Of a DNA stretch of 58,928 bases, positions 25,799 to 47,896 are shown piece by piece (position 1 is the stretch's first letter; every line of letters starts with the position of its first letter). The position numbers were made by a program, and so were the translations under genes. Below the pieces are notes generated by a model. The model was not told where the DNA came from and made no database searches. It worked only from the letters and a program-made list of their open reading frames with translations. This DNA comes from an uncultured Clostridia bacterium (lineage in GTDB: Bacteria; Bacillota; Clostridia; UBA1381), in the NCBI GenBank assembly GCA_947624165.1, contig CANQJC010000012.1:1-58928 (forward strand), read 5' to 3'.

Positions 25799-26413
25799 TT
25801 ATTTTACAAGCTCGGTGAGCGTGACCTCCGAGCTTGTTTTGATTTTTTCTTTGTCTGACAGATTGAAGGTGTATTCATTGTTGTACGCGACGTCGAGGTT
25901 ATAGGACGCGCGTATTTTTCCGACCGACGAGGTTATGACTATGTTGCCCTTTCCCGAAGCGGCGTAGCGTCCAGAAGGTATGTCGTCGGGACAGGAATAA
26001 GTTTTGCTTTTTTCGAGCGTGTAGGTTTTGCCCGTCCGCTCGTCGCTCACTCCCGCCGACTTTTCCAGCTCGGCGCGTTCTTTGTTTATTTCCTCGTCAA
26101 GTCTCGCGGATTCCTTTTTCATGTCCGCTATTTCGTTAACGAGCGCGTCGTGGGCGTCCTTGTATTCCATATAGTAATTGTTGACGGTATCCTTCGTGCT
26201 GAGCTGCGTGTCGATATCTTCTATCTGTTTTTTGATCTCGTCTTCCTCCGCTTCAAGCTCCTCCGTGTCCTTCTTTATTTCGCCATACTCCGAAGCCAAA
26301 GAGACGCGCGCTTCGCCGCCGGCTCTCAGGTAAAACGGCACAAGAAAAAGAGCCGCCGCGCAGACGGCGGTAATAAAGGAAATCAATATAACAAAAAGCT
26401 TTTTACGCGTCAT
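25799..26413 (-). CDS. Membrane-anchored coiled-coil protein with C-terminal beta domain (paralogue B)
   Basis: 204 residues. One membrane helix at about 5-28 (FVILISFITAVCAAALFLVP), then a charged coiled coil to about residue 120 (EIKKDTEELEAEEDEIKKQI), then a beta-rich domain whose core KSKTYSCPDDIPSGRYAASG is related to the GxYxVGxDIPAGxY domain of many Firmicutes surface or envelope proteins. Its neighbour at 26432 has the same layout, so the two look like a tandem duplication. Function unknown. It is the last gene of the ispE-side transcript before the terminator. Confidence 0.75.
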   Translation of the reverse strand: MTRKKLFVILISFITAVCAAALFLVPFYLRAGGEARVSLASEYGEIKKDTEELEAEEDEIKKQIEDIDTQLSTKDTVNNYYMEYKDAHDALVNEIADMKKESARLDEEINKERAELEKSAGVSDERTGKTYTLEKSKTYSCPDDIPSGRYAASGKGNIVITSSVGKIRASYNLDVAYNNEYTFNLSDKEKIKTSSEVTLTELVK

Positions 26414-26431: not shown

Positions 26432-27139
26432 TTACTCGGGAACAAATTTTGCGTTCCCGTCTATTTGTATAATGTCTCCGTTTGTAAGAGTGAAAACGTC
26501 GCCGTCGGATTTGAGGAGCTTATTTACCGATGATTTGCCGGAGCTGCCTATCGAAATACTGCCCGTACCCGTGACGGTGTACCTGCCTTCGGCTATATTA
26601 ACGCCGACCGTGTACCTGCCCGACGACCACGTAACGGTCTTTTTTGTCTTGTCGGCGAGCGACGCCTGTATTGCCGCGAGAGCGGAACGCTTAGAAGCAA
26701 GCTCGTCCGAAAGCGCGTTCTTTTCCTGTTCGAGCGCGTCGTTCGACTCGGTTATTTTGCGCAGACTGTCCTGCGACGCGTTAAACTTATCAAGCTCGTC
26801 CTTCTTCTCCTCAAGACGCTTCGCCGCGCTGTCGCGTTCGTTCTTCGCGCTGTCGGCGTTTTGCCGCGCGTTCACGTAATCGCTGTCGGAAAGGCGCATC
26901 GACGCGAGACGATGCGACACGACCGCGTCGCTTAACGGCAGCGCGATACCGAGTATAAGCGATAACGCCGCTGCGGCGGCGCAAATCGCCGCGCCGCGTA
27001 TGACGAACCGTTTGGGCAGGTCGCCCTTGAGACGCTTAACGTAACGCCGCGCCGATATTATGGGCGGATCGGACGCGGCTTCATTTTCACGCGGCGGCTC
27101 GTCGACTATTATTTCGATTATATCCTTTTCCTTTTCCAT
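26432..27139 (-). CDS. Membrane-anchored coiled-coil protein with C-terminal beta domain (paralogue A)
   Basis: 235 residues from ATG 27139, placed behind AAGGTGA; the GTG 9 nt upstream lies inside that Shine-Dalgarno. An acidic N-terminus (about 1-40) and a basic stretch precede a membrane helix (AAICAAAAALSLILGIALPL). A long coiled coil (about 80-150, KLDKF/LEEKKDEL-like heptads) follows, and the C-terminal domain contains SSGRYTVGVNIAEGRYTVTG and ends with DIIQIDGNAKFVPE. It begins 10 nt after ispE, 18 nt before paralogue B. Function unknown. Confidence 0.75.
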   Translation of the reverse strand: MEKEKDIIEIIVDEPPRENEAASDPPIISARRYVKRLKGDLPKRFVIRGAAICAAAAALSLILGIALPLSDAVVSHRLASMRLSDSDYVNARQNADSAKNERDSAAKRLEEKKDELDKFNASQDSLRKITESNDALEQEKNALSDELASKRSALAAIQASLADKTKKTVTWSSGRYTVGVNIAEGRYTVTGTGSISIGSSGKSSVNKLLKSDGDVFTLTNGDIIQIDGNAKFVPE

Positions 27140-27149
27140 AGCCGTCACC

Positions 27150-28035: not shown

Positions 28036-28848
28036 CTACCTCCTTTCGAGAGCCTCGTGGGAACGCTCGGTCACGGCGCGTATCATATCGTCCGTCACAT
28101 TGTCGCAGTCCGCACCGTTTATGAGATACGCGAGATACTCTATGTTTCCCTCGGGTCCTTTTACGGGCGAATACGTAAGCCCCGCCGCGCAAAGCCCAAT
28201 ACTCCGCGCGAACGTCAGAACTTTTTCTATGACCTCGTAGTGTATCTTTATGTCCCTTACAACGCCCTTTTTGCCTACCTGTCCGCGTCCCGCTTCAAAC
28301 TGCGGCTTGATCAGCGCGGCGATCGCGCCGTTTTGACGCAGCAGCCTTTTTGCCACGGGCAGTACGAGCGTGAGCGAGATAAACGAAACGTCTATCGACG
28401 CGAAATCTATTTCCTCGCCTATATCCTCGGGCGTCACGTAGCGTATATTTGTACGTTCCATATTCACGACTCTCTCGTCGCTGCGAAGCTTCCATGCGAA
28501 TTGTCCGTACCCCACGTCGACGGCGTACACCTTCTTCGCGCCGTTTTGCAGCATACAGTCCGTGAAGCCGCCCGTGGACGCGCCTATATCCATGGCGGTC
28601 ACGCCCTTGAGAGATATATCGAATTCGTCTATCGCTTTTTCAAGCTTAAGACCGCCTCGGCTCACGTATTTAAGCGTCTCGCCGCGTATTTCGGGTTTTG
28701 CGGCATCCTCGTCCACCATTTGCCCAGCCTTGTCGCATTTTTGATTATCTATATATACCTGTCCCGCCATTATGACGGCTTTCGCTCTCTCGCGGCTTTC
28801 GATAAGACCTTTTTTGACAAGCAGCGAGTCAAGTCTGATTTTAGCCAT
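28036..28848 (-). CDS. tlyA: TlyA/YqxC-family rRNA methyltransferase (S4 plus FtsJ-like)
   Basis: 270 residues from ATG 28848 (MAKIRLDSLLVKKGLIESRE), a typical S4 RNA-binding start. Then a FtsJ/RrmJ-type SAM domain: DIGASTGGFTDCMLQNGA, DVGYGQFAWKLR and DVSFISL. Mycobacterial TlyA 2'-O-methylates 16S and 23S rRNA and gives capreomycin sensitivity; in Firmicutes the gene (yqxC) lies downstream of dxs, as here. The ATG overlaps the dxs stop by 8 nt (ATGGCTAA), implying translational coupling. Confidence 0.95.
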   Translation of the reverse strand: MAKIRLDSLLVKKGLIESRERAKAVIMAGQVYIDNQKCDKAGQMVDEDAAKPEIRGETLKYVSRGGLKLEKAIDEFDISLKGVTAMDIGASTGGFTDCMLQNGAKKVYAVDVGYGQFAWKLRSDERVVNMERTNIRYVTPEDIGEEIDFASIDVSFISLTLVLPVAKRLLRQNGAIAALIKPQFEAGRGQVGKKGVVRDIKIHYEVIEKVLTFARSIGLCAAGLTYSPVKGPEGNIEYLAYLINGADCDNVTDDMIRAVTERSHEALERR

Positions 28849-30694
28849 TTGTCTGTAACTCCTGTATTTGTGATACGACCGAAACCGCGTCGAGACCGCA
28901 CATTGCGTCAAGCTCGTCTACGGAGCCGTGAGTGATCGGAACGTCGGGAACGGCGAGTATCTTGAACGCGCAGTCTATACGCGCTTCTTCGAACAGCGAC
29001 GCGATCATGCCGCCCATACCGCCCGTTCTGACGTTGTCCTCTATTGTTATCACGCGCCGCGTCTTTTTTGCCGACGCGATTATTGCTTGTTCGTCGAGAG
29101 GCTTGACGGTGGGGAGCGCGATTATCTCAACCGACATTCCCGCAAGCGCGGCGGCTTCCTGCGCCCTCTTTACCATTCTGCCGGTCGCTATTATCGTAAC
29201 GTCCGAGCCCTCCTTTATAAGCTGCGCCTTTCCGAACGTGAAACCGTCCGGCACGTCCGACGCTTCGGCTCCTCCGCGCGGATAGCGTATAGCCACGGGC
29301 GCGTTGAAGCGGTTCACCGCGAAATCAAGCATTTCTTCGAGCTGCTTAAAGGTGGCGGGGGACAGTATCGTCATATTCGGCATGTGCGACAAATATGAAA
29401 TATCATAAATTCCCTGATGCGTTTCGCCGTCCGCGCCCACTATTCCGGCACGGTCGATGGGAAACACAACATGAAGATTTTGCAGACATACATCGTGAAG
29501 CGTCTGGTCGTATGCGCGCTGAAGAAAAGACGAATACAGTGGTATTACGGGTATATAACCGCCCGCCGCAAGTCCCGCGGCGAACGTTACGCCGTGCTGC
29601 TCCGCTATTCCTACGTCGAAAAAGCGGTTTTTGAATCGTTTTTGAAATTCCTCAAGTCCCGTTCCGCTTGGCATCGCGCCTGTTATCGCGATGATCCTGT
29701 CGTTTTTCTCCGCGAGCTTTACAAGCGCGGAGCCGAAGCGCGAGCTGTATGTTTCACCCTCGTTTTTCGTCTCGCCCGTTTCCTTGTCAAACGGGGATAT
29801 ACCGTGGAATTTGCGCGGATTTGCTTCGGCGGGAGCGTAGCCCTTGCCCTTTTTCGTCTGTACGTGTATGAACACCGGCTTCTTCTCGCCCTTGACGTAT
29901 TCGAAGCACTGTATCATTGATTTGATGTCGTGACCGTCCACGGGTCCCATATAAGTGAATCCCATATCGTCGAAAAGCGTTGTGGGAATAACAAGACGAC
30001 GGAAAAAGCGTTTTACTTTTTTTATGACGCTCACGATCGCGCCGCCCGCCAGAGGTATGCGCTTGAGGAAATTCTCCACGGCGACCTTCGAACGGAAATA
30101 AATGGGAGACATTCTGAGCTTTCTCAAATGCGCCGAGACCGCGCCGACGTTGCGCGATATCGACATCGCGTTATCGTTCAAAATAAGAATGAGCGGCGTT
30201 TTCGTGTGCCCGGCGTCGTTCATCGCCTCGTACATCATGCCGCCCGTAAGCGCGCCGTCGCCGAAAACGGCGATGATATTCGAATCGCCGCCGTCAAGAT
30301 CGCGCGCGCGCGCAAGCCCCAAAGCCGCCGAAACGGACGTCGAGCTGTGTCCCGTGTTAAACACGTCGCACTCGCTTTCGCTCCTTTTTGGGAATCCCGA
30401 GATACCGCCGAATTGACGCAGCGTACCGAAGCTGTCCTTCCTGCCCGTGAGGATTTTGTGGACGTAGGACTGATGTCCCACGTCAAAAATGATTTTATCG
30501 TCGGGAACGTTAAAGACGGCGTGCAAAGCGACGGTCAGCTCGACGACTCCGAGATTGGACGCGAGGTGACCGCCCGTTTTTGAAACGTTGTCAATCAGGA
30601 AAGCGCGTATCTCGGCGCACAGTTCCGTAAGCTCGTCGGTATTCAGTTTTTTCAAATCTTCGGGTGAGGTTATATTGTCTAAGAGTTTATTCAT
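28841..30694 (-). CDS. dxs: 1-deoxy-D-xylulose-5-phosphate synthase
   Basis: 617 residues from ATG 30694 (a TTG two codons earlier is less likely). Thiamin-diphosphate enzyme: VGHQSYVHKILTGR (catalytic His), GDGALTGGMMYEAMNDAG and NDNAMSIS (ThDP/Mg site), then the transketolase-like middle domain GIAEQHGVTFAAGLA and C-terminal VITIEDNVRTGGMGG. It joins pyruvate with glyceraldehyde-3-phosphate in the first step of MEP isoprenoid synthesis. It is 23 nt downstream of oapA, the same order as in the Bacillus halodurans OLE region and its relatives, as I recall it. Confidence 0.97.
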   Translation of the reverse strand: MNKLLDNITSPEDLKKLNTDELTELCAEIRAFLIDNVSKTGGHLASNLGVVELTVALHAVFNVPDDKIIFDVGHQSYVHKILTGRKDSFGTLRQFGGISGFPKRSESECDVFNTGHSSTSVSAALGLARARDLDGGDSNIIAVFGDGALTGGMMYEAMNDAGHTKTPLILILNDNAMSISRNVGAVSAHLRKLRMSPIYFRSKVAVENFLKRIPLAGGAIVSVIKKVKRFFRRLVIPTTLFDDMGFTYMGPVDGHDIKSMIQCFEYVKGEKKPVFIHVQTKKGKGYAPAEANPRKFHGISPFDKETGETKNEGETYSSRFGSALVKLAEKNDRIIAITGAMPSGTGLEEFQKRFKNRFFDVGIAEQHGVTFAAGLAAGGYIPVIPLYSSFLQRAYDQTLHDVCLQNLHVVFPIDRAGIVGADGETHQGIYDISYLSHMPNMTILSPATFKQLEEMLDFAVNRFNAPVAIRYPRGGAEASDVPDGFTFGKAQLIKEGSDVTIIATGRMVKRAQEAAALAGMSVEIIALPTVKPLDEQAIIASAKKTRRVITIEDNVRTGGMGGMIASLFEEARIDCAFKILAVPDVPITHGSVDELDAMCGLDAVSVVSQIQELQTNG

Positions 30695-30717
30695 AACCAA
30701 AGCCTCGTATATTTTGT

Positions 30718-31308
30718 TCAGTGCTTCCTTAAATGCTTAAAGAAGTACATTATTTTTCCTACGATAAATACTATCGAATTACCGTTCTGCATGGAGATAC
30801 CCTTGGACATCGCCTTGCCGCCTATCGTGAGCGCGCCGACAAGTCCCGTCAGGATCAAGCTCGGCAGCATACCCTTAAGCTCGAACATAGACACAAGCTC
30901 TGTCACTATCAACGCGGTCGTCGCACCCGATATAATACCCGCGATGTCGCCTATCACGTCGCAGCACATATTCGCAAGCTGCGGCGCGTGCCGTATGACG
31001 GAAATGCTTTCTTTCGCGCCCGCGACCCGTCTGGACGCGAGTGAGTGGAACGGTTTTTCCTCCGCGGACTGCACCGCCGTACCTATCATGTCGAACAGAA
31101 TGTTTACCGCTATGATAACAAGCAGAAGCACAAACGCGAAAAACACCGTAATGGATTTCATTGCCGCAGACGTTATGAAGCTGAAAAAGACAGACAGCAC
31201 AAACGACAGCGCAAGAACGATTATCGTCCACTTATATGAAGCGGATACGTTTGAATCGGGGTGCGGAAGCTTGAATTTTTTTCGTTTCGGTATGTCCGAT
31301 TTGTCCAA
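30718..31308 (-). CDS. oapA: OapA-like OLE RNA-associated membrane protein
   Basis: 196 residues. Start taken as TTG 31308, because AAAGGAGAG lies 7 nt upstream and any longer frame would translate the OLE RNA. The N-terminus is basic (KSDIPKRKKFKLPHP). Four membrane helices can be drawn: about 25-50, 53-78, 120-140 and 148-170. Between helices 2 and 3 lies a polar loop with FHSLASRRVAGAKESISVIR. OapA proteins have this size and topology, dimerise, bind OLE RNA and hold it at the membrane. The call depends on size, topology and position directly after the OLE RNA and before dxs; I could not align it to a reference. Confidence 0.82.
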   Translation of the reverse strand: MDKSDIPKRKKFKLPHPDSNVSASYKWTIIVLALSFVLSVFFSFITSAAMKSITVFFAFVLLLVIIAVNILFDMIGTAVQSAEEKPFHSLASRRVAGAKESISVIRHAPQLANMCCDVIGDIAGIISGATTALIVTELVSMFELKGMLPSLILTGLVGALTIGGKAMSKGISMQNGNSIVFIVGKIMYFFKHLRKH

Positions 31309-31379
31309 GTAAATTCTCTCCTTTAAAATATAAAATGAACGAAACGCGCTGCGTTTACGATTCCATACATTGTAAATAG

Positions 31380-32001
31380 GGTAATGAACAGAGTAAAGTT
31401 TGCGGCTTAGGTCCGGAAGGCTTTCCCGCGCTCCTGCACCCTCGTCGCCGAGGGAGCGGTTTCCCTTTAAAGGCGCGCACCTTTTTGAGGTTGCCGGACT
31501 GCCACTGAGTCCGCACTGCAATCCTCTGTTCATCCGTATTTCAGACAGCCTAGAGGTTTTCCCAAACAGCCATAGCTCTCCGTATCCTCTTTTGCAGACA
31601 TGGTTTCAACACGCGATACCCGCTCGCAACGATGCGCAATGATGCGTTCGGGTTTTGTTCATGTATCCGCCATATCCACTCAAGGCTGGCTACGCTGCCC
31701 ACAGCATTCATACCGCTGCCCTTGTGAGGCTGCGGACTACTAACCGCGAAACAGGTTTTCCCCTGCGCCGTAACGACTTGCTCCCTTAGGGGGTCTAGGC
31801 CGCCACAGTCACAGGCCTCCACGGAAAAGGGGGAAAGGTAACCATGCCGTTGGAAACCGCCCCTAAACCTTAACTCCCAGCATCAGCCCCGAACTGGGCG
31901 TTCAAAGCAAAACACCAGAAACTTCATCGATGTGCCATTTGGCGGATTTTTAGGCCCGCTTTCCGAAGAACCGTACCGACTAGGATACTGCACCGCTATT
32001 G
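31380..32001 (-). ncRNA. ole: OLE RNA (ornate large extremophilic RNA)
   Basis: About 620 nt without a plausible gene, between a strong minus-strand promoter and oapA. It is much more GC-rich and ordered than the flanking AT-rich intergenic DNA. Stems seen on the plus-strand text: CCCTCG/CGAGGG (31439-31454), CGGACT/AGTCCG (31495-31513), and a perfect 10-bp long-range helix between 31384-31393 and 31524-31533. The length matches the about 610 nt of B. halodurans OLE RNA, and the downstream genes oapA-dxs-tlyA match the OLE locus. OLE RNA forms a membrane RNP tied to cold, alcohol and metal stress. The 3' boundary is approximate. Confidence 0.85.
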
Positions 32002-32007
32002 GCGTAT

Positions 32008-32036
32008 AGTATATCATATTTCACATCAAAAGTCAA
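32008..32036 (-). promoter_or_regulatory. Sigma-A promoter of OLE RNA
   Basis: On the minus strand TTGACT (32031-32036) and TATACT (32008-32013) are separated by 17 bp. This near-consensus promoter predicts a start close to 32001 and abundant transcription of OLE RNA and the oapA-dxs operon. Confidence 0.88.
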
Positions 32037-32085
32037 TGTGCGCGGCAAATAGTTTACAAATGCGTAATAAATTGCCGTGAAGCTA

Positions 32086-32114
32086 TTTACAAAAAGATTG
32101 TTCGGGTATATAAT
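32086..32114 (+). promoter_or_regulatory. Promoter of proBA, divergent from OLE
   Basis: TTTACA (32086-32091), 17-bp spacer, TATAAT (32109-32114), with RBS GGAGGAAG 24 nt downstream. It is about 70 bp from the OLE promoter, pointing away. Confidence 0.78.
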
Positions 32115-32149
32115 TAGAAACGACCAATAATTGATTTCGGAGGAAGAAA

Positions 32150-32968
32150 ATGGACGATATATTAAATGATGTGGCGTCGGCGCAAAGGATAGTCGTTAAA
32201 GTCGGAACATCGACGCTTACATATGAGCGCGGAACGATGAATCTGAAGCTTATCGACCGTCTCGCCATGGTACTTTCCGATTTGAGGAACCAAGGCAAGG
32301 AGATAATACTTGTGTCGTCGGGTGCGATAGGGATCGCGCTCGGCAAGCTCGGTTTGGAGGAAAGACCGAAGGACACAAAGGGAAAACAGGCTGTCGCCGC
32401 GGTCGGTCAGTGCGAGCTGATGTATCTTTACGACAAGGTATTCGGCGAATATAACAATACCGTCGCGCAGGTCCTCGTGACGCGCGACGACATAGCGATA
32501 CCGAAAAGAAAAAGAAATATTCAAAATACCGTAACAACGCTTCTCGAAATGGGTATAATACCTATCGTGAACGAAAACGACACCGTCAGCTTTGACGAGA
32601 TCGAGATAGGCGACAACGACACGCTGTCCGCCGTCGTCGCGGAGCTTGTGAACGCTGACCTGCTCGTTCTTTTTTCGGATATAGACGGACTTTACGACGA
32701 CGACCCGCACAGGAACAAAAACGCCAGACTTCTCCCAGTCGTGTACGACGTGGAGGAGGTAAAGTATACGGCGCACGGCGCGGGTACGAGCCGCGGCACG
32801 GGCGGTATGGTAACGAAACTCGAAGCCGCCGAACGCGCCGTAAACGCGGGTATTCATATGATAATTGCGAACGGAAACAACGTTGACGCCATGTACGATA
32901 TATTAAACGGCGAAAACGTCGGAACCCTGTTCGTATCCAAAAATTTTGAAAGGAAAAATGACGTATGA
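32150..32968 (+). CDS. proB: Glutamate 5-kinase (short form without PUA domain)
   Basis: 272 residues, an amino-acid kinase domain only; many ProB proteins carry an extra C-terminal PUA domain of about 100 residues that is missing here, as in several Clostridia. Motifs: IVVKVGTSTLT, LVSSGAIGIALGKLGL, PIVNENDTVSFDEIEIGDND and SDIDGLYDDDP. It phosphorylates glutamate for proline synthesis and is normally inhibited by proline. The stop overlaps the proA start (ATGA). Confidence 0.96.
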   Translation: MDDILNDVASAQRIVVKVGTSTLTYERGTMNLKLIDRLAMVLSDLRNQGKEIILVSSGAIGIALGKLGLEERPKDTKGKQAVAAVGQCELMYLYDKVFGEYNNTVAQVLVTRDDIAIPKRKRNIQNTVTTLLEMGIIPIVNENDTVSFDEIEIGDNDTLSAVVAELVNADLLVLFSDIDGLYDDDPHRNKNARLLPVVYDVEEVKYTAHGAGTSRGTGGMVTKLEAAERAVNAGIHMIIANGNNVDAMYDILNGENVGTLFVSKNFERKNDV

Positions 32969-36134: not shown

Positions 36135-37991
36135 TTAAAACAATTTTTCGAGAAGCTTGTTCGAACGCTCGATAAATTTTGTCATTTGATCGGGGCTGAG
36201 CGGGCTGTGGCTTATTTTCGCGAGATCGTAAATGTGATCTATAACCGTGGCTTCCGTTTCGCCGTCGAGCGCGGAGAGCTTTGAAATGAGCGGATTGGAC
36301 GAATTCAGAACAAGCGTGAATTCGTCCTTAAACATATCCGCCATACCCGCCATCTGCTGACCGTATGCGCGGTACATTTCTCTCATTCGCCGCGACTGCT
36401 CTCCCAGAAGAATGACCGCCGGAACGGATTCGTCCTTGAGAGACTGTACTTCGATTTTCAGATTTTCGTCGCCGATTTGTTTCTTGAATTTTTCAATAAG
36501 CTTTTCGTCGCGCTCCTTTGTCTCGTCCGTTTCTTCGGAGCTTTCCGAAATGTCGTTGAGTGCGGAGTCGATACGCTTAAATTTTATTTCGGGCTGTTTC
36601 ATTTCGATAAAGGATATGAAATGCGTGTCCATCATGCTTGGAAGCACGAGAGCGTTCAGTCCCTGCTTTTTGAACATATTTACGTACTGCGACTGAAGCT
36701 CGGTATCGGAAACGTAATACACGTCCTTGTCGTCCTTACCCTCGAGATACGCGTCGAGCGTGATATATTTACCGTCGAGATCCTTATATATTATTGCGTC
36801 CTTGACCTTGTCGTAAAATTTTTCGTCGCGCAGACAGCCGTATTTTATGAATATGTTTATATCGTCCCAATATTTTTCATAGTTTTCGCGTTCGTTGGCG
36901 TACATTCCAGTAAGCTTGTCCGCAACCTTTTTTGTTATGTGATTCGATATCTTTTTTACATAACCGTCGTTTTGGAGGAAGCTTCTTGACACGTTGAGCG
37001 GCAAATCGGGACAATCGACAACGCCTTTCAAAAGCATGAGGAAATCGGGTATCACTTCTTTTACGTTGTCCGCGACGAACACCTGATTGTTATAGAGCTT
37101 GATTTCGCCCTCCTGTCCCGCAAATTCGTGATTTATTTTCGGGAAGTAGAGTATGCCCTTTAGATTGAAGGGATAATCCACATTCAGATGTATATAGAAA
37201 AGCGGTTCGTTAAAGTCGAGAAACACGTCGCGGTAGAACGTCTTATATTCCTCGTCCGTACATTCGGACGGCTTTTTCATCCATAACGGGTGCGTGTCGT
37301 TGATAGGCTTTTCGTCCTTGTCCTCGCCGTCCTTATCCTCATCGCTCTTGTCTTTGTCGTTTTCGGGAGTTTCGACATAAACCTCTATCGGCAGGAAGGA
37401 GCAGTATTTATGCAGTATGGAGCGTATAGTGCTTTCCTCGAGAAAGTTTTCGCTGTCCTCGGATATGTTGAGGGTCACGGTCGTGCCGCGCTCCGTTCTT
37501 TCGCCCTTTTCAAGCTCAAATTCCATGCTTCCGTCGCACGTCCACTTTGCCGCCTCCGCGCCGTCGGCATACGAGAGCGAGTCTATTTCGACGCTGTCCG
37601 CGACCATAAACGCGCTGTAAAATCCCAAACCGAAGTGACCGATTATCTGCGCGCCGTCGTCCTCCTCTTCCTTATACTTTTCAAGAAAATCGCTCGCGCC
37701 GGAAAATGCGATTTGATTTATGTACTTGTCGATCTCCTCCGCGGTCATACCGATACCGTTGTCGCTTATTACGAGCTTCTTCGCGTTCTTGAAAATCGAA
37801 ACGGTCACCTTGAATTTTTCGTCCTCGCCGAGCGTTGCTTCTCCTATGCCCGCGAGCTTTTGAAGCTTCGTTATCGCGTCGCAGCCATTCGAAACAAGCT
37901 CCCGCAGAAATATGTCCTTGTCGGAATAAAGCCATTTCTTGATTATCGGGAACAGGTTTTCGCTGTCGACCGAAATGTTACCCTTTGCCAT
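36135..37991 (-). CDS. htpG: Chaperone HtpG (Hsp90)
   Basis: 618 residues. N-terminal GHKL ATPase domain: LRELVSNGCDAITKLQ (the Glu and Asn of the ATP site), DNGIGMTAEEI, GHFGLGFYSAFMVAD. A charged linker rich in Asp/Lys (KDKSDEDKDGEDKDEK region) separates the middle domain, which has NVSRSFLQ; the C-terminal part provides dimerisation. It is a stress chaperone. A perfect CIRCE box upstream places it under HrcA, the heat-shock repressor, not a usual arrangement in B. subtilis, where htpG is class III. Confidence 0.98.
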   Translation of the reverse strand: MAKGNISVDSENLFPIIKKWLYSDKDIFLRELVSNGCDAITKLQKLAGIGEATLGEDEKFKVTVSIFKNAKKLVISDNGIGMTAEEIDKYINQIAFSGASDFLEKYKEEEDDGAQIIGHFGLGFYSAFMVADSVEIDSLSYADGAEAAKWTCDGSMEFELEKGERTERGTTVTLNISEDSENFLEESTIRSILHKYCSFLPIEVYVETPENDKDKSDEDKDGEDKDEKPINDTHPLWMKKPSECTDEEYKTFYRDVFLDFNEPLFYIHLNVDYPFNLKGILYFPKINHEFAGQEGEIKLYNNQVFVADNVKEVIPDFLMLLKGVVDCPDLPLNVSRSFLQNDGYVKKISNHITKKVADKLTGMYANERENYEKYWDDINIFIKYGCLRDEKFYDKVKDAIIYKDLDGKYITLDAYLEGKDDKDVYYVSDTELQSQYVNMFKKQGLNALVLPSMMDTHFISFIEMKQPEIKFKRIDSALNDISESSEETDETKERDEKLIEKFKKQIGDENLKIEVQSLKDESVPAVILLGEQSRRMREMYRAYGQQMAGMADMFKDEFTLVLNSSNPLISKLSALDGETEATVIDHIYDLAKISHSPLSPDQMTKFIERSNKLLEKLF

Positions 37992-45226: not shown

Positions 45227-45475
45227 TCACCACTTTTTCTTCGGACATTTGCCGTCTTGCAGACGCGCTCTGACCTGCATAACGCAGCCGCACACGGCGC
45301 AGGTGGAGGAGTAGATAAAGCTGTCACATTCGGCGCATATGTCTATCCTTTTCATATATTCGTCCTCCCGAGCGAGCCTTACGCCCTTCATCGACATTAC
45401 CTCGTTCACCATTTTTTCTATATCGTCTTGCGTGAGAACGGTCTTCAGCCCGCATCGTTTACATTTTTTCGTCAT
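45227..45475 (-). CDS. Small Cys-rich (zinc-ribbon-like) protein
   Basis: 82 residues starting [14 protein letters not shown], with later [15 protein letters not shown] and a final Cys (GKCPKKKW). Eight Cys in paired CxxC motifs suggest two zinc sites, as in the DUF6171-type proteins of Clostridia phages and chromosomes. Function unknown. The ATG overlaps the stop of the GH51 gene (ATGA) and comF follows after 4 nt, so the three are one transcript. Confidence 0.75.
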
Positions 45476-46932
45476 GACAGCGTGATCACCGCCACACTCA
45501 TTCTCGGCAGCGTAAGCTTTACGGAGTTTCCCTCCGTGACGAGCGTGAGACTTGACGGAACGACTGTTTCGGGCGACGAGAATGTGTTCGTATCGGTCGC
45601 GGAACGCGCTGTCATCAGCTCGCATTTTGCGTCCGAAAATACGCGGTCGCATACTATCTCCGTTTCTTCGTCGCTGTCAAGACTTAAATTGCACAGTGAA
45701 ACGGTGACCGCCCCTCCGCGCTCTGACGCGCTGACGCTTACCTTCGGAAGCTTCTTTCCTCTGTGGTTTATTTCGCCGCAGTCACAGCTTACGCCGAGCT
45801 TTTCGCCGTCCATGTGTCCCTTCATCATTTTAAACAGGTGATACGTGGGTGTGAGCAGCATTTTTTCGCCGTCGGTCAGTATCATAGCCTGGAGGACGTT
45901 TACCATCTGCGCTATATTCGCCATATAGACGCGGTCACAGTGTTTATGGAATATATGCAGAGTAAGCATCGCGCTCAGCGCGTCGCGCATGGTATTCTGC
46001 TGATAGAGAAATCCGGGATTCGTTCCGGCTTCCACGTCGAACCAGTTTCCCCATTCGTCGACGATAAGCCCGATTTTTCTTTCGGGGTCGAAACGGTCCA
46101 TTATTTCCTTGTGAAGGCTTATCACGCCGTCCATTTTGAGCGCGTTGGAAATGAGATCGTAATATCCGTCCTCGTCGAACTGCGCCGCCTTGCCCTTGTT
46201 TTTCCAGTCGTCCTCATACGTGTAGTTGTGGAGCGAAATGCCCGCCGCCTTGTCGCCGACGCGCTCCATGAGCGTTTCCATCCAGTGCGCGTCGTCCTCG
46301 TTGGGACCTCCGGCGATTTTATATATCGGCTCGTCGCCGTAATCGCGTATGAAAGACGCGTATCGACGGTATTCGTCGGCGTAATATTCGGCGCGCATAT
46401 TACCGCCGCAGCCCCAGTTTTCATTACCCACGCCGAAAAATTTGAGCTTCCACGGCTTTTCACGGCCGTTTTCGCGCCGTTCGCACGCGAGCGGAGAGTC
46501 GCCGTCGAACGTCATGTATTCGACCCAATCGCGCATTTCCCGAACGGTGCCGCTGCCGACGTTGCCGCATATGTAAGGCTCGCATCCGAGCTGGTCGCAC
46601 AGCTCGAAAAATTCGTGAGTGCCGAAGTGATTGTTCTCCACAACGCCGCCCCAGTTTGTATTCACCATATACGGACGCTTCGATTTGTCGCCTATGCCGT
46701 CGCGCCAGTGATAATCGTCGGCGAAACAGCCGCCGGGCCAGCGCAGGACGGGAATTTCAAGCTCCTTTAAAGCGTCCACGACGTCACAGCGCATGCCGTT
46801 TATGGTTTTAACGGAACCGTCCTCGACGTAAATTCCTTCATATATACATCGTCCGAGATGTTCGGCGAACTGTCCGTAAATATATTTGCTTATTTTCCCT
46901 TGTTTTTTTGATGTGTCCAAATTGATTTTCAT
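45472..46932 (-). CDS. Alpha-N-arabinofuranosidase, GH51
   Basis: 486 residues, no signal peptide, so probably intracellular. GH51 motifs: [15 protein letters not shown] near 23, [18 protein letters not shown] near 84, acid/base Glu in [12 protein letters not shown] and nucleophile Glu in [14 protein letters not shown]-terminal beta-sandwich follows the TIM barrel. It removes terminal L-arabinofuranose from arabino-oligosaccharides, pointing to plant-cell-wall feeding. RBS GGAAG before the ATG. No transporter or other arabinose gene is beside it. Confidence 0.95.
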
Positions 46933-47104: not shown

Positions 47105-47122
47105 ATCTGTACAATCGAACAT

Positions 47123-47219
47123 CAGAGTAGATTTGCGCGCGTAAAGTGCGGAGCGGACGGGGAGTTGCCGCTTTGACGAAAAGCCATGCGGCTTGCGGTG
47201 CGCGGATCGCATCCCGCTG
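47123..47219 (+). promoter_or_regulatory. Tetrahydrofolate (THF) riboswitch
   Basis: The leader of folT contains the conserved THF-I blocks in order: AGAGTAGA, GCGCGTAAAGTG, GGGGAGTTGCCGC, GACGAAAA, GCGGTGCGC and the closing GCATCCCGCT, with the short P1 formed by CAG and CTG at the ends. THF riboswitches bind reduced folates and in Clostridia usually precede folT. Downstream are a weak hairpin (TTGGCAA...TTGCCGAA, about 47243-47264) and the RBS GGAGGTG; control is probably at translation initiation. Confidence 0.92.
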
Positions 47220-47290
47220 AAAAAACAGTTAACATCTCTTTTTTTGGCAAATGTTTGATTGCCGAAAAATTTAACGGAGGTGTTTTTTTC

Positions 47291-47896
47291 ATGCAAAAAA
47301 AACTGCCAAATCCCGCGGGGGATCTGTTTAAAAGGATCGTAAGATCCGCGGGAAATCTTACCGATGTGCGCGGGCTTGTACTGTCTGGCGTACTGCTCGG
47401 TCTGCACGCGGTGCTCGGAGGACTTAAAATTCCGTTCGCGCTCGACAACAGAATAACATTGACGTTTGCCGTAAACGCTGCGGTCGGAATAATACTCGGT
47501 CCCGTTCCCGCCGCCGTAGTGGGCGGAGCGGGGGATGTTCTCGGTTATTTGATAAACCCCGGGGGCGGACCGTATTTTCCGGGCTTTACGCTGTCGGGAA
47601 TGCTCGGCGGCTTTATATACGGGCTGTTCCTTTACGGGATAACTCTTTCGCCCGACAGGAAAAAAGCGACGGCAAAAAGCGCGCTTCTCGTCATACTTTC
47701 CTGCGCCGTCGTGACGTTCTTCGTCAATATCGTTCTGAACACGTATTGGCTCTCGGTATTGTACAAGAAGGCGTTCGCGATTTTCTCGGCCGCGAGGATA
47801 ATTAAAAATCTCGTGGTGTATCCCCTGCACGCCGTCGTCGTTTTCGCGCTGTTCACGCTTACGGAACGAACGGGGATACGAAAAAAGTATCTATAA
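47291..47896 (+). CDS. folT: Folate-specific ECF transporter S component (FolT)
   Basis: 201 residues from ATG 47291, preceded by GGAGGTG; the longer frame translates riboswitch sequence. Five to six membrane helices: RGLVLSGVLLGLHAVLG, LTFAVNAAVGIILGPVPAAV, FTLSGMLGGFIYGLFLYG, LLVILSCAVVTFFVNI and VVYPLHAVVVFALFTL. The pattern (small S component with GxxxGG-like helix contacts) and the THF riboswitch fix the substrate as folate. It works with the shared EcfA/A'/T module, encoded elsewhere. Confidence 0.9.
   Translation: MQKKLPNPAGDLFKRIVRSAGNLTDVRGLVLSGVLLGLHAVLGGLKIPFALDNRITLTFAVNAAVGIILGPVPAAVVGGAGDVLGYLINPGGGPYFPGFTLSGMLGGFIYGLFLYGITLSPDRKKATAKSALLVILSCAVVTFFVNIVLNTYWLSVLYKKAFAIFSAARIIKNLVVYPLHAVVVFALFTLTERTGIRKKYL

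Follow-up and report, generated by a model that had tools for sequence, protein, structure and literature searches.

A complete OLE RNA gene upstream of a putative oapA gene in an uncultured Clostridia bacterium

Locus and gene arrangement

The window, i.e. the whole stretch of 58,928 nucleotides that was analysed, comes from an uncultured Clostridia bacterium whose assembly (1.76 Mb, 40 contigs) is about 82% complete. An OLE RNA gene is located at 31380..32001 on the minus strand. According to the cmscan search of the whole window, the Rfam family RF01071, which is typed as Gene, matches at 32012..31362 (-) with 415.3 bits (E 1.3e-118), as compared with a gathering score of 50. The match spans the model from end to end (1-616) and is not cut off. 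The sequence-only reading had claimed a complete OLE RNA gene here and had proposed running RF01071 on the minus strand. That search was run, and the full-length match bears the claim out. The match is wider than the gene, taking in unstructured flanks. The gene is called from the match and from covariation, with its start placed 7 nt after the -10 element and its end taken from the sequence-only reading. When the whole assembly was searched, the window copy was the sole OLE match. These results confirm that the region is a complete, ordinary copy of OLE, a known large bacterial RNA.

The GC content of the OLE RNA is 54%, that of the immediate flanks is about 36-39%, and that of the neighbouring coding stretches is mostly 46-62%. 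The RNA had been described as unusually GC-rich against AT-rich flanks. This is correct for the immediate flanks, but does not hold against the coding neighbours.

A predicted promoter is located at 32008..32036 (-), with the -35 element TTGACT, a 17-nt spacer, the -10 element TATACT and an upstream TG. It matches the consensus at 10 of 12 positions. A promoter scan of 30600-32400 gave seven sites against a shuffle mean of 1.9; thus, a single promoter match means little. Of the 15 genus members with OLE, 14 have upstream DNA, and the TTGACT-17-TA...T layout is found in all of these; G006, in which the contig ends at OLE, was left out of the comparison. Of the 26 family members with OLE, 23 were examined, and 22 of these have TTGACT or TTGACA ahead of OLE; the exception, G031, has TTTACA. 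The near-consensus promoter proposed from the sequence is upheld by this conserved layout. The predicted start also agrees with the RNA start proposed near 32001, as the -10 element ends 7 nt ahead of that position.

Downstream of the RNA, the 196-aa OLE-associated protein A (OapA) is encoded at 30718..31308 (-), with a TTG start after AAAGGAGA. The gap between OLE and oapA is about 54 nt, and both are read in the same direction. The next gene is dxs, encoding 1-deoxy-D-xylulose-5-phosphate synthase (28841..30694 (-); PF13292, PF02779 and PF02780), and dxs also follows oapA in the family loci extending that far. A tlyA-like rRNA methyltransferase gene with S4 and FtsJ domains is located at 28036..28851 (-) (PF01728 and PF01479); we take its product to be TlyA, the name also used in the sequence-only reading. 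The GHMP kinase gene downstream of it is presumably ispE. An amino-acid kinase gene and its neighbour, which we assume to be proB and proA, diverge upstream of OLE.

Other features of the window were observed in passing. Two ORFs downstream of the presumed ispE, at 25799-26413 and 26432-27148 (-), have a coiled-coil, membrane-anchored look by eye, and no Pfam match was obtained for the latter. A THF riboswitch aptamer at 47121-47221 (+) (RF01831, 87.3 bits) fronts the ORF listed at 47186-47896. We take this ORF to encode a protein like the S component of a folate ECF transporter, with the true start probably further in. The ORF at 45472-46932 (-) presumably encodes a relative of alpha-L-arabinofuranosidase, which would fit a plant-fibre fermenter.

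Secondary structure and covariation

The Rfam pairs were transferred to the window and counted over a MAFFT alignment of 40 OLE sequences. The alignment is blind to structure, and the structure itself is from Rfam, fitted to the window. The 40 sequences are from the OLE genomes with a full-length match, out of 44; the partial copies of G016, G019, G052 and G060 were left out. In the window, 132 of the 153 Rfam pairs are standard and 21 are non-standard. The proportion of paired cells is 86.3% both in the 15 genus members and in all 40 sequences, and it falls to 38-47% when the partners are slid by 1-3 bases. Compensatory changes were detected at 40 of the 153 pairs in the genus (15 sequences), against 7-17 when slid, and at 88 pairs in the 40 sequences, against 44-57 when slid. 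At 17 of these 21 non-pairing positions, a standard pair is likewise lacking in 10 or more of the 40 sequences. These results indicate that the OLE secondary structure is backed by covariation inside its own genus.

A long-range helix at 31383..31534 (-) pairs 31534-31524 with 31393-31383. In the 40 sequences, both sides have changed in 10 of its 11 pairs, and the remaining pair is invariant. The 10-bp helix pointed out earlier (31524-31533 with 31384-31393) is part of this Rfam helix and is real, since nine of its ten pairs have changed on both sides and the tenth is invariant.

Dimer contacts and protein-binding regions

The P4 hairpin (31941..31960 (-)) has the A-rich loop CCUAAAAA, and UAAAAA is present in 40 of the 40 sequences. 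A symmetric A-A dimer contact of the P4 loop is described by cryo-EM (PMC12286853). The base and flanks of the P5/P5.1 arm (31874..31921 (-)) hold the published kink-turn, which is the OapC site (PMC9723947). These flanks, GAUGAAGUUYCUGGUG and GGUGCUGG/GAUGCUGG..GUUAAGG, are nearly invariant over the 40 sequences. The loop of the P6/P6.1 arm (31823..31869 (-)) contains GGC, complementary to GCC of the P5.1 loop, and each of the two triplets is present in 40 of the 40 sequences. L5.1 and L6.1 form a kissing contact in the dimer (PMC12265935). At the level of sequence, the letters of both the L4 and the L5.1/L6.1 putative dimer contacts are conserved in 40 of 40 copies.

The P9 arm (31695..31754 (-)) has 37 nt against 6 in the Rfam model. 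By eye, an AGUA/GAA-type internal loop is found in most family members, and we take it to be a bulged-G/loop E motif; the group of G005, G007, G008, G010 and G011 deviates on the GAA side. By eye, the P9 hairpin loops of the genus, e.g. CUCACAAG or CCCAUAAG, show no self-complementarity. Structures from two Clostridium species show a symmetric P9 kissing loop (PMC12286853, PMC12265935), a contact that lies outside the Rfam OLE definition. As the P9 loop is not self-complementary, this published fourth dimer contact is not apparent in the genus of the window, with the loops judged by eye. The P13 hairpin region (31428..31478 (-)) has covarying pairs and the UUUAAAGGGAAACC segment, and GGGAAACC or near variants are present in the P13 region of the 40 sequences. 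The published OapB-binding site is located in this region (PMC12265935).

Compared with full-length OLE of RF01071, the window copy shares model positions 1-616, the promoter, the adjacent oapA, and the OapB and OapC-like genes, as well as the conserved L4, L5.1/L6.1, kink-turn and P13 regions. It differs by a longer P9 insert, by the P9 hairpin loop without self-complementarity, and by the hairpin at 31491-31479, which is shorter than that of the model. OLE variants 1 and 2 are commonest in the TANB77 and RF39 gut clades; P7-P9 is short or missing, the OapB site is missing, and OapB is largely missing (PMC11332333). The window OLE is likewise found in host-associated uncultured Bacillota. Unlike the variants, however, the window copy retains P7-P9 as well as the OapB region at P13, and OapB is encoded in the genome. 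Because P7-P9, P13 and OapB are present, the window OLE belongs to the full-length type.

OapA

No Pfam or NCBIfam match was obtained for OapA at the thresholds used. The AlphaFold model, calculated with a 15-sequence alignment, has a mean pLDDT of 78.7 and contains four long helices (25-52, 55-81, 108-141 and 148-174) and a fifth one of 20 residues. A four-helix membrane protein followed by dxs and tlyA had been proposed. The four long helices of this putative membrane protein and the Pfam matches of the downstream genes agree with this description. In the Foldseek search, the five top PDB matches of the model are all CNNM proteins (7m1t twice, 7m1u, 7cff and 7cfg; E 0.026-0.77, probability 0.96-1.00, query TM 0.45-0.53), but no match is as good as E 0.001. 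In several relatives, OapA itself matches CNNM weakly, at 19-30 bits. A resemblance of OapA to MpfA is described in PMC11332333. The 196-aa downstream protein is taken as OapA, and its predicted fold is nearest to the membrane domains of CNNM proteins such as the Mg2+ transporters MpfA/CorC. Unlike MpfA, OapA has only 196 aa, which leaves no room for CBS and CorC domains, and it accompanies an RNA.

A profile built from 15 oapA copies matches in 42 of the 61 genomes, namely 42 of 44 with OLE and none of 17 without OLE. Thus, OLE and oapA are missing together in the OLE-less genomes. In the dxs stretch of 16 OLE-less genomes, no oapA match was found; the contig of G047 carries only part of dxs. 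OLE and oapA are neighbours in 41 of the 44 OLE genomes. No oapA was found in G055 and G060, whose OLE adjoins a contig end. In G037, OLE (L007, C6:36543-37199) and oapA (C21:82542-83099) are on separate contigs, and this is the only clear separation among the 44 OLE genomes.

Occurrence of OLE in relatives

OLE is present in 44 of the 61 genomes of the genus, family and order, and in 15 of the 16 genus genomes, the genome of the window being included in both counts. The exception in the genus, G012, is probably an incomplete assembly, because OLE, oapA and a strong dxs match are all missing. In the class, 86 of 196 genomes (an even draw with a 90% completeness floor) have OLE, and the scores reach 556 bits against 415 in the window. 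The order-level and class-level searches were performed with the stricter filters of Infernal, and weak copies may escape them. In G016, G019, G052 and G060, the partial OLE match is in each case directly at a contig end or no more than about 100 nt away from one. As contig ends adjoin them, no truncation is claimed, and these four are not counted as broken OLE genes.

Most of the named records with the nearest OapA are MAGs, with labels including 'Lapin', which we read as rabbit, and 'Goat_Duodenum'; the record 'Lachnospiraceae bacterium MD329', whose oapA is 86% identical, has no MAG label. These labels indirectly support the host-associated setting suggested by the sequence-only reading, and the group of the bacterium is a gut-associated one. 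The novelty implied for this setting finds no support, since OLE is known in uncultured gut clades of Bacillota, with 2,822 Bacillota hits in GTDB (PMC11332333). The host-associated setting is thus no surprise.

OLE and MpfA-like proteins

An MpfA-like protein was defined as a CNNM match of at least 75 bits in an open frame of at least 285 aa, and was called from the CNNM match alone. CNNM proteins of at least 75 bits are present in 16 of the 17 OLE-less genomes and in 6 of the 44 OLE genomes (plain Fisher p 5e-9, which ignores relatedness). The OLE-less genome without such a protein is the probably incomplete G012. A hit below the cut-off in G055 (19 bits, 489-aa frame) was left uncounted. 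In the genome of the window (G000), no CNNM match was found in the assembly of about 82% completeness, so the absence of MpfA is weak for this genome alone.

A Dxs tree was used for 40 of the 61 genomes. These are 35 of family f1, excluding G012 and G034 (fragmented), and five OLE-less genomes of family f2. The tree holds no OLE-bearing genome of f2, f3 or f4. On this tree, OLE needs five changes, and three of them are forced by starred branches. On average, MpfA is opposed to OLE in 2.3 of the three independent pairs and does not differ in 0.7, and it goes with OLE in none. With phylogeny considered on the Dxs tree, the relation between OLE and MpfA is not significant, and significance is out of reach with only three independent pairs. 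An anticorrelation of OLE and MpfA has been published (PMC11332333). The pattern in these genomes agrees with it at a finer scale and is not proof of replacement.

In the OLE-less genome G018 (L072), a gene like htpG of the window (36135-37991) is located directly upstream of dxs. Thus, the neighbourhood differs there beyond the loss of OLE and oapA.

OapB in genomes with and without OLE

The OapB of the host genome is an 85-aa protein matching PDB entry 7k9b ('OLE-associated protein B') with E 2.4e-14, and its gene adjoins infA, after a map-like ORF. An 80-aa ORF of the L7Ae family is located directly ahead of the rpsL-like and rpsG-like ORFs. We take this slot to be the position of YbxF/OapC, and the protein is regarded as OapC-like from this position and the family. 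The genes for OapB and OapC, which are usual but not universal for OLE, thus appear to be present in the genome. The genome also encodes a Spo0A C-terminal domain.

OapB matches were found in 37 of the 44 OLE genomes and in 14 of the 17 OLE-less genomes including G012. Family members with a Dxs identity of 55-72% were compared, with G021 and G035 (no OapB found) and G034 (fragmented Dxs) left out. The identity of OapB to that of the window is 62-76% in eight OLE genomes and 38-53% in ten OLE-less genomes (Mann-Whitney p 0.0004), whereas Dxs itself gives p 0.12. TlyA shows no similar drop, with 69-77% in the eight OLE genomes and 74-76% in five OLE-less genomes with a long hit.

In the first set, drawn from the genomes of the genus, family and order, the complete motif of K/R65, K/R71 and N74 (window numbering) was found in all 37 OLE genomes with OapB and in none of 13 OLE-less genomes. 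G012, whose OapB carries the motif of the OLE genomes, was set aside from the count. For the class, 100 further genomes (60 OLE-less and 40 with OLE) were picked among the matches listed, before their sequences were seen, and 98 were used, with G218 and G184 left out (58 of the 60 OLE-less). All three residues are present in 27 of 40 OLE genomes and in 5 of 58 OLE-less genomes; the other 13 OLE genomes are without the full motif. None of the OapB counts, in either set, is corrected for relatedness. K/R71 alone is found in 32 of 40 against 19 of 58. C-terminal gaps of at least three residues were detected in none of 40 OLE genomes against 12 of 58 in the class, and in none of 37 against 6 of 13 in the first set. 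With p 0.001 to 0.04, the groups also differ at R15, K48 and K50, which lie outside the C-terminus; general divergence may therefore account for part of the effect in OapB. Six class families have both kinds of genome, and the motif is mixed in them: position 71 agrees in f27 and f9 but not in f18, and f37, f38 and f42 show no clear trend either way. In the order, D42 separates the groups, being found in 36 of 37 OLE genomes against 2 of 13 OLE-less ones, whereas the class figures are 13 of 40 and 13 of 58; D42 was dropped as an OLE marker.

At L040:1182-1436 and in its homologues, OapB of many OLE-less genomes of the Clostridia type has an eroded or shortened C-terminal segment around the K/R-V-T-N motif. 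In PMC11332333, none of the 11 places that deal with OapB mentions such C-terminal erosion, and newness is not claimed. Our tentative proposal, which we regard as plausible but on balance do not favour, is that MpfA-type transporters would occur instead after the joint loss of OLE and oapA. OapB would be kept but freed, and its C-terminal segment with K/R65, K/R71 and N74 would erode or be deleted. This segment would be the OLE-specific face, and OapB of OLE-less genomes would have a separable function as a KOW protein.

Function of the window OLE

Very probably, the window carries a full-length, functional-looking OLE gene with its own promoter upstream of oapA, dxs, tlyA and the presumed ispE. 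It would be the RNA core of a membrane-bound OLE RNP, and the OLE/OapA particle would serve Mg2+ homeostasis and stress adaptation as elsewhere. In published work, OLE is the RNA of a membrane RNP (PMC11332333). The particle with OapA, OapB and OapC helps cells under Mg2+, alcohol, cold and carbon stress, and this knowledge of the stress role and the particle is from Halalkalibacterium halodurans and from Clostridium structures (PMC11332333, PMC9723947). By analogy with published work on other species, the OLE RNA of the present host would pair with itself to form a dimer, and OapA, two per RNA, would hold it at the membrane. OapC would bind the kink-turn, and OapB would bind P12.2/P13. The host is without a detected CNNM/MpfA gene, and the OLE/OapA particle may serve Mg2+ homeostasis and stress adaptation likewise.

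OLE could instead be mainly a long 5' leader for cis control of oapA and the isoprenoid genes, not the RNA of a separate particle. The short gap to oapA in the same direction and the position of dxs after oapA in the family loci reaching that far would fit such a leader. The three terminator-like sites in 30600-32400 would fit as well, being no more than shuffles give (mean 1.9, sd 1.7). However, a weak terminator-like hairpin of six pairs is located at 31356-31342 (-) between OLE and oapA. In G037, OLE is intact with oapA on a different contig, and in the f2 relatives OLE is intact with the dxs match on another contig or far away. The Rfam type is Gene, and OLE is treated as a membrane RNP RNA in the literature (PMC11332333). 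We consider the leader improbable.

Still less probable is a decaying relic in a host to which OLE has become dispensable. The score of 415 bits is below that of many class copies, and 21 of the 153 model pairs are non-standard. Against decay, the copy is of full length, and 14 of the 15 other genus genomes have OLE, the exception being the probably incomplete G012. Compensatory changes go on within the genus (40 of 153 pairs), the promoter and oapA are conserved, and at 17 of the 21 non-pairing positions 10 or more of the 40 sequences lack a standard pair, too. The relic reading was rejected on the genus-wide presence, the continuing compensation and the conserved promoter.

The chance that the region encodes a protein is negligible: open frames there reach 90 aa in the window, but the 90-aa frame has internal stops in 11 of the 15 genus members and a length not divisible by three in 7 of 15, including two of the stop-free members, so that it is open and in frame only in G000 and G001, and the substitution pattern tracks RNA pairing. 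A coding frame was rejected on these breaks. A conserved coding frame, the result that would have spoken against the earlier claim of a non-coding structured RNA, was not found among the 15 genus members. That claim is sustained by the RF01071 match and the covariation in the 40 copies as well.

Few structured bacterial RNAs with no known biochemical function are as large as OLE. The window copy alone adds little to this subject, and the surrounding family is useful. The relatives with and without OLE form a natural comparison of what stands in the place of OLE and how its partners look without it. The OapB signature supplies named residues for testing.
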